Source: a candidate division KSB1 bacterium (GTDB taxonomy: Bacteria > Zhuqueibacterota > Zhuqueibacteria > Residuimicrobiales > Krinioviventaceae). Taken from it: a DNA stretch of 64,000 nt. A program made the translations under genes and the position numbers. Of the stretch, positions 38,122 through 39,590 are shown piece by piece. Numbering within the stretch: position 1 is the first letter of the stretch; the number at the start of each line of letters is the position of its first letter. Location: assembly GCA_034521575.1 (NCBI GenBank), contig JAXHMJ010000003.1, forward strand, positions 124,001 to 188,000. The letters run 5' to 3'. The notes under the pieces are model-generated. The model had not been told where the DNA came from. It saw only the letters and a list, made by a program, of their open reading frames with translations, and searched no databases.

Positions 38122-38217
38122 ACCGGATGCTCCTGTTTGAACGCAAGCTGTGCCGGGAATGCTGTTTTCAGCATGCGGGTACCCATACAAAGAAAAGGGG
38201 GAATACATAAAACTAAC

Positions 38218-38251
38218 AGTACGTACTGCAGTACATACTATAGTACGTACT
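38218..38251. repeat. Imperfect 34-bp palindrome
   Basis: Two copies of the self-complementary AGTACGTACT (38218-38227 and 38242-38251) flank a partly symmetric centre. The whole element is an imperfect inverted repeat. It directly adjoins the gene fragment at 38251, so it could mark a recombination junction. Confidence 0.6.
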
Positions 38252-38298
38252 GGAAGCAGATTTGAATGCTGTCACGCAACTATGATTGTTGACGGAAT
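38251..38298 (+). pseudogene. 3'-end fragment of a paralogue of the gene at 39076-39462
   Basis: TGGAAGCAGATTTGAATGC at 38251-38269 is identical to 39428-39446, the end of the downstream gene, and the similarity continues past the stop codon (about 70% over 45 nt). The fragment reads EADLNAVTQL then stop, against EADLNAITQS in the intact gene. Only this end remains. Confidence 0.6.
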
Positions 38299-38449: not shown

Positions 38450-38705
38450 CGATCGCCCGGGAGTTCGATCCCGGGCGTGCGTTGTGTGGAGACATCGGTC
38501 TCCGGCCCCCTCGGCGTGGGAGCAGGATTGAGCCATATCGGCCTATCTTTAAATTGTGGGTTCGGTTTTATGACAATCCTGCTGCAACGCTGGCTCTGAT
38601 GCTGCGGCTCGTCCGTGCTGCTATTGGGACGGATGTCCCGGTTCATTGTCCACCCTGGATGGATATCCGGGGCGATCTTTTTGAGAATGAGCAGGCGCTC
38701 TACTC
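38450..38705. repeat. Structured tandem repeat, unit 1 (256 bp)
   Basis: First of two direct repeats. It contains four hairpins: A at 38454-38477 (8-bp stem with CCCGGG on both sides of an AGTTCGAT loop), B at 38488-38503 (GGAGAC/GTCTCC), C at 38626-38639 (GGGAC/GTCCC) and D at about 38653-38672 (stem around GGATATCC). All are present again in unit 2 at the same spacing. Confidence 0.75.
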
Positions 38706-38945
38706 CGATTGCCCGGGAGTTCGATCCCGGGCGGGTGCTGAGTGGAGACATCGGTCTCCGGCCCCCTGGGCCTGTGAGCAGGATTTGGCCATATCGGCTT
38801 GTGTTTGAGTGATGGTCTCGGTTTTATGACAGCCGTGCGGTCACACCGGCTCTGATGCTGCGGCTCGTCCGTGCCGCCTGCGGGACAGATGTCCCGGTTC
38901 ATTGTCCACCCCGGATGGATATCCGGGGCGATCTTGTGTGTCGGC
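38706..38945. repeat. Structured tandem repeat, unit 2
   Basis: Second copy, offset by 256 bp. Hairpin A is at 38710-38733, B at 38744-38759, C at 38882-38895 and D at about 38908-38929. Differences from unit 1 in stems A and D keep pairing (C-G against T-G), while the sequence between hairpins differs more. This pattern suggests selection on structure, as in a structured RNA or a palindromic mobile repeat. Confidence 0.72.
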
Positions 38946-39075
38946 ACGGTTTTGTATTAAAGGGGAACAGCCTGTTGTGAATCTTTTTAATTTAAAGCTT
39001 GATATCTCGACGCTTTTTTAATAATTTAAAGAGATCATTGTAATATTTTCAGTGCTTTTTTTAAAAGGGGTAACC

Positions 39076-39462
39076 ATGCAGAAAAAATACAAGCTTTCAC
39101 CGCGGGAAAACTGGTATATCATTCTTGTTTTCAGTTCCATTCCTCTGGTCCGGTTGCTGATGGAACGAACCTTGAGCCTGTCTCTGCTTGTCCAGGTGCT
39201 GGTTTACATGCTTGCCTCAACAGCTATTGTTGTGAGCCGGAGTCAGGTTATAGCGGAGATTAAAGACAATACCCTGCATGTGTATAACGGTATCGGGCTT
39301 TCTGATCCGGATCATTTGCAACTGTCACGAATCTCCGGAACACAACGAGTGACCAGCCGGTTGTTAAACATTCAATACGAAGGACGAACCCTGTCCGTGG
39401 AGGGGTATAAAAAAGTATTGGATAAAGTGGAAGCAGATTTGAATGCGATCACACAATCATAA
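39076..39462 (+). CDS. Small membrane protein, PH-like domain
   Basis: 128 residues. Two hydrophobic helices (about 13-32 and 37-57) are followed by a short beta-rich domain (AEIKDNTLHVYNGIG, LQLSRISGTQRVTSR) and a helix (VEGYKKVLDKVEADLNAITQ). This resembles bacterial PH-like membrane proteins of unknown role. ATG 39076 has AAAGGGG upstream. A fragment of a second copy lies 1.2 kb upstream. Confidence 0.55.
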   Translation: MQKKYKLSPRENWYIILVFSSIPLVRLLMERTLSLSLLVQVLVYMLASTAIVVSRSQVIAEIKDNTLHVYNGIGLSDPDHLQLSRISGTQRVTSRLLNIQYEGRTLSVEGYKKVLDKVEADLNAITQS

Positions 39463-39590
39463 CGTTTAACGGAAATCGCAGGCGGGCATGGGCGCTGAAT
39501 TGAATTCTTATAATTCCCTGCTTGTAGTTATTCCGCACCCCCTTTAGAATGTAAACTATTGTCTTTTCTTTCCGGCATACAAAAAATCCA

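Follow-up and report, generated by a model that had tools for sequence, protein, structure and literature searches.

Two copies of a 230-bp palindromic sequence lie side by side in the 64,000-nt stretch of KSB1 DNA analyzed here (the window), and each of them is very probably a non-autonomous REPIN-like element, i.e., palindromic mobile DNA, and not a new RNA gene. REPINs, or BIMEs, are inverted REP doublets (Bertels and Rainey 2011, PMC3116915), and the best explanation for the KSB1 element is that a RAYT near subclass 2.6 (group 5) produces it. Direct support comes from the anatomy of the element, its copy number and covarying structure, the orientation of its doublets, their extragenic location, and the linkage to a single RAYT clade in related genomes.

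The window copies are gapless direct repeats (38450-38679 and 38706-38935) of 85% identity with a start-to-start distance of 256 bp, and the repeat unit has a GATC foot at both of its limits. Each copy holds four hairpins, A to D, of which the first two form a left half-unit that is the reverse-complement homologue of the right half-unit formed by C and D. Scores are those of covariance model R1, which was built from the half-unit and used to count copies across genomes:

38450-38679, forward strand: element copy 1, 230 bp, composed of left half-unit, 121-bp core and right half-unit
38451-38503, reverse strand: left half-unit of copy 1, hairpins A and B with the GATC foot leftmost (59.2 bits, E 5e-11)
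38454-38477, forward strand: hairpin A of copy 1, outer hairpin of the left side
38488-38503, forward strand: hairpin B of copy 1, inner hairpin of the left side
38504-38624, no strand: core of copy 1, 121 bp, less conserved
38625-38677, forward strand: right half-unit of copy 1, hairpins C and D with CGATC foot (74 bits, E 1e-14)
38626-38639, forward strand: hairpin C of copy 1, inner hairpin of the right side
38653-38672, forward strand: hairpin D of copy 1, outer hairpin of the right side, followed by CGATCTTTTT
38680-38705, no strand: spacer between the copies, 26 bp, outside the repeat
38706-38935, forward strand: element copy 2, 230 bp
38707-38759, reverse strand: left half-unit of copy 2 (57.2 bits, E 1.7e-10)
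38760-38880, no strand: core of copy 2, 121 bp
38881-38933, forward strand: right half-unit of copy 2 (76.8 bits, E 2e-15), the top match of the genome

The core of copy 1 additionally holds a 17-nt inverted repeat (38514-38530/38574-38590).

A previous sequence-only reading had described this region as a 256-bp tandem duplication. Two direct copies with that period are indeed present, but only 230 bp are repeated, while the outer flanks and the 26 bp of spacer are not common to both, so that we are dealing with two element copies and not with a simple tandem duplication of 256 bp. The shared set of four hairpins with constant spacing that it described was borne out: all four sit at identical offsets, and the 486 bp contain six perfect stems no shorter than 6 bp, while 300 dinucleotide shuffles gave 0.67 on average and never more than 3. 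It is equally true that the DNA between the stems diverges more, with mismatches at 32 of 158 other positions versus 2 of 72 hairpin positions (Fisher p = 0.0002). The reported changes from C-G to T-G that preserve pairing are found at the foot of hairpin A (C38454 in copy 1, T38710 in copy 2) and in hairpin D (T38656 in copy 1, C38912 in copy 2), and a third hairpin difference between the copies is the loop of hairpin C. A resemblance of the hairpin A loop to a tRNA T-arm turned out to be incidental: ARAGORN detects no tRNA, and GGGAGTTCGATCCC is replaced by GGGATATCGATCCC or GGGATAACGATCCC in the other full copies of the genome.

The basic unit of the element is the 53-nt half-unit, composed of a short hairpin, an 11-nt linker, a long hairpin, and a GATC foot. 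An alignment of 28 half-units, left and right halves together, brings them into one register with the consensus GGGAC-RRAT-GTCCC, the 11-nt linker, CCCGGAT-GRAT-ATCCGGG as the outer hairpin, and CGATC. The loop of the inner hairpin is mostly RRAT, and the outer hairpin has 8-9 bp with a loop that is usually GRAT; in a larger set of 112 half-units, the GATC foot is present in 86 and the 11-nt linker in 99. Half-units mostly come as inverted doublets with their feet pointing outward, which is the layout of REPINs: among 41 adjacent pairs, 28 are oriented -+ like both window copies, 9 are +-, 4 are ++, and none is --. They are also extragenic, given that 0 of 41 tested half-units fall inside open reading frames of at least 600 bp versus a background of 47%. 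In some copies of the related genome G007, the outer-hairpin loop is enlarged by tandem 16-nt units, e.g., CCCCTTACGGGATGTG.

Paired positions of the half-unit covary strongly. In a MAFFT alignment of 28 half-units, 34 pair cells are changed on both sides compared to 9.3 after shuffling, and the 112-sequence set shows 255 such cells versus 72 in shuffles, with another 31 in which just one partner has changed (G-U type). The larger set had been aligned to the covariance model and is therefore biased toward the structure of that model, though the 28-sequence MAFFT alignment gives the same picture. Few one-sided (wobble) changes should remain where both DNA strands depend on pairing, and their scarcity is thus suggestive, though not proof, of pairing that is symmetric between DNA strands.

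Covariation of this kind, hairpin positions kept between the window copies, and a hairpin D in copy 1 that also resembles an intrinsic terminator because the T-run CGATCTTTTT comes directly after it could all be taken as signs of a structured RNA, i.e., a small RNA or 3' UTR element that was duplicated in tandem and whose hairpins are under selection at the RNA level. We consider this highly unlikely. A search of Rfam at gathering and permissive thresholds returned nothing credible, and the ratio of 31 one-sided to 255 two-sided changes is what pairing on both DNA strands predicts. Moreover, copy numbers ranging from zero to more than 100 between related genomes, the occurrence in either orientation, and the inverted doublets are all unlike a conserved RNA gene, and a single-stranded DNA substrate of a transposase accounts for the hairpins. 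The sequence-only reading had left the choice between selection on RNA structure and a palindromic mobile repeat: the latter is well supported by other copies, inverted doublets, and RAYT linkage, while the former is unsupported, with no Rfam match.

The covariance-model search and copy count that had been proposed as a check of this reading detected 18 half-units at E<=0.01 in the genome of the window (G000), 17 of them strong, and 0 to 111 per related genome. We looked for an absence of other copies and for differences spread evenly over the repeat, which had been named as outcomes speaking against it, and observed neither. A second pair of full elements with 77% identity is found at C5:2600965 and 2601427 (within C5:2600965-2601644), and homology among the full copies of G000 stops at the GATC feet. 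Beyond these full copies, the half-units of G000 are mostly single right halves, found at C1:134428, C1:435124, C5:1940456, and C5:344789 together with five at C5:2318-2338 kb. With few copies and many single halves, the family in G000 looks old and is possibly immobile. The five clustered half-units share one orientation and lie amid small toxin-antitoxin-like genes (C5:2317000-2340000), several of them just upstream of antitoxin-like genes with an MNKK-TLYID start.

The C5 element pair sits in a 462-bp segmental tandem duplication that has also copied neighboring sequence, including the end of the upstream coding sequence, and the half-units at C5:2318-2338 kb recur as part of a repeated module. 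The window copies might in the same way be nothing but a local tandem or segmental duplication of ordinary palindromic intergenic sequence that took place without any transposase. However, they have the element alone in common and neither flanks nor spacer, and half-units are dispersed across G000 and its relatives and found beside one RAYT clade, which leaves this explanation with a very slim chance.

In the broader phylum, the half-unit family is multi-copy, extragenic, and patchy among related genomes. At E<=0.01 we counted 111 half-units in G002, 77 in G007, 38 each in G008 and G021, 28 in G009, and 25 in G012, with zero in many relatives, and at E<=1e-5 there were matches in 19 of 82 KSB1 genomes. 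The PF01797 count per genome does not track the half-unit count. Pattern-scan matches in Paracoccus, Pseudophaeobacter, Clostridium, and an actinomycete are apparently unrelated pairs or products of chance. Similar two-hairpin units were seen in Armatimonadota genomes, some of them with CCATC and not CGATC after the outer hairpin.

Possible signs of mobility come from two comparisons of related DNA. Two paralogous segments of G009 show homology up to the GATC of an element that only one of them has and diverge beyond it, which constitutes a one-sided junction, and at an orthologous locus of G009 and G007 the element is found in one species only, with intergenic DNA that is unalignable. A clean two-sided empty site was not obtained in the empty-site searches. 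In these same two genomes, several doublets lie inside a repeat of ca. 250 bp or longer with 19-bp inverted ends (GTAAAACGTCAGTTACAGG / CCTGTAACTGACGTTTTAC) and, at two loci, 8-bp target duplications (GCTGCGTC, GGGCTTTC). This repeat carries the doublet in its middle, i.e., it is a MITE with a REPIN inside, so that copy number in G007 and G009 is partly due to another transposon and a second route of spread. One could ask if a DDE transposon is behind the whole family, which would then be a MITE that carries the hairpins along as mere passengers. We regard this as most improbable: the GTAAAACGTCAGTTACAGG / CCTGTAACTGACGTTTTAC ends are absent around the window copies, homology of full copies in G000 ends at the GATC feet instead, the same relatives also have doublets without the MITE, and RAYT genes of several genomes have half-units on both sides or directly adjoining.

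This linkage to RAYT genes is clearest at G002:C28, where one half-unit lies just past the stop codon on the strand of the gene and another at its start on the opposite strand, with a small array of further half-units adjoining this bracket. The encoded protein matches NF047646 (REP-associated tyrosine transposase) with 106 bits at a cut-off of 80, but reaches only 22.8 bits with the IS200 model, below the cut-off of 55; a PDB sequence search gave no matching chain. The same two-sided bracket surrounds the RAYT of G056:C34, a genome from a different family of KSB1, and one-sided half-units are found at RAYT genes of G048:C45 and, weakly (16.5 bits), G054:C63. Furthermore, G007:C238, G012:C208, and G001:C12 hold RAYT fragments directly next to half-units, with the two oriented as at the intact genes. 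The probability of finding a half-unit by chance no more than 150 bp from a particular gene end is 0.0003-0.006 in these genomes. Another RAYT gene of this kind (G008:C76:304-1498) breaks off after roughly 52 codons, and the break coincides precisely with the end of a half-unit.

A tree of 31 RAYT-like proteins places the four intact RAYTs flanked by half-units in one clade (support 100/98; 0/500 shuffles), and half-units are linked to only this clade. Some genes in the tree had been picked by similarity to the first half-unit-flanked RAYT and the half-unit of G054 is weak, so that G002, G056, and G048 carry most of the weight of the linkage. Other KSB1 RAYT genes are flanked by their own, unrelated hairpins, which suggests that the phylum harbors several REP families, one per RAYT clade.

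For G000 itself, the searches turned up no intact member of the cognate RAYT clade; the genome is 96% complete, so that a gene could have been missed. The nearest gene (C3:62964-63479) has 45% identity to the G002 RAYT, groups elsewhere in the tree, and has different flanking hairpins, and neither the known RAYT-like genes of G000 nor its strong IS200-type Y1 genes have a half-unit beside them. That the core of the window element could be a RAYT remnant was ruled out by tblastn. As no cognate RAYT was found, the window copies may be relics.

The association expected of REPINs, with a RAYT flanked by the same REPs, is present at G002:C28 and G056:C34 and was not found in G000. Like REPINs, the KSB1 element is an inverted pair of palindromic REP units around a variable core that is extragenic, multi-copy, patchy, and RAYT-linked, with singlets as probable remnants. 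It departs from REPINs in having two hairpins per arm, separated by a constant 11 nt of linker and ending in a GATC foot, in the 121-bp length of the core in the window copies, and in its low copy number in G000. A canonical REP is a single hairpin of 20-40 nt with a GTAG or GTGG foot, whereas the KSB1 half-unit has two hairpins joined by an 11-nt linker over 53 nt and GATC (86/112) in place of this foot.

The non-GTAG foot and double hairpin bring the element closer to two other kinds of structures. TIRtrons are composed of a RAYT-like gene flanked by non-GTAG inverted repeats, some of which are double palindromic and some of which have spread as repeat families (Di Nocera 2013, PMC3733652). 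The accessible portion of that account reports them from Stenotrophomonas, Koribacter, and others with KSB1 unmentioned, and we liken the KSB1 element by description only to the double-palindromic TIRtrons found there (PMC3733652). RAYTs of subclass 2.6 (group 5) have atypical flanking structures without GT[AG]G of which copies exist elsewhere in the genome (PMC6006769). This subclass is mostly reported from Bacteroidetes and characterized by the motifs NH[LIV]H, WQ, YIH[QN]NP, and SS with a HuH-Y distance of about 82 residues (PMC6006769). The G002 RAYT resembles it in NHLH, SS, and a HuH-Y distance of 80 residues, but has WK for WQ and a D in YIHDNP; this comparison was made with motifs and not with a subclass profile. 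IS200/IS605 insertion sequences likewise rely on HuH/Y1 transposase chemistry and have guide tetranucleotides with their subterminal hairpins, but the KSB1 RAYT scores far below the IS200 cut-off, and the KSB1 element has ends that are inverted copies of one another.

From these parallels we infer how the element might spread. Its half-units would fold in single-stranded DNA, where a RAYT (a HuH/Y1 transposase) supplied in trans would bind the hairpins, use the GATC foot as a guide for cleavage, and move or copy the doublet to extragenic sites. The window copies presumably arose by this RAYT route, with copy 2 placed beside copy 1 by adjacent insertion or local array growth. More tentatively, and with slightly less than even confidence, we propose a separate REP-RAYT lineage across the candidate phylum that is defined by an obligatory hairpin pair, fixed spacing, and a GATC guide, with a RAYT that would read two hairpins at once, in contrast to the GTAG systems studied to date, which have one hairpin.

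These results extend REPIN-RAYT systems to KSB1, for which we found no earlier description in the literature searched, and add a covarying double-hairpin unit with GATC as candidate guide tetranucleotide. Genomes with a RAYT and many copies next to those with few copies and no RAYT found offer a natural series for studying repeat persistence. The results also call for caution, as covarying intergenic hairpins can be substrates of a transposase at the DNA level rather than RNAs.

Two further features were noticed upstream of the window copies. A 47-nt segment (38251-38297) has 79% identity to 39428-39474, the 3' end of a 136-aa gene (39052-39462), and is probably the remnant of an older duplication. 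The DNA that separates a Gfo/Idh-type gene from the elements includes, at 38217-38252, a nest of palindromes based on GTACGTAC / GTACATAC.
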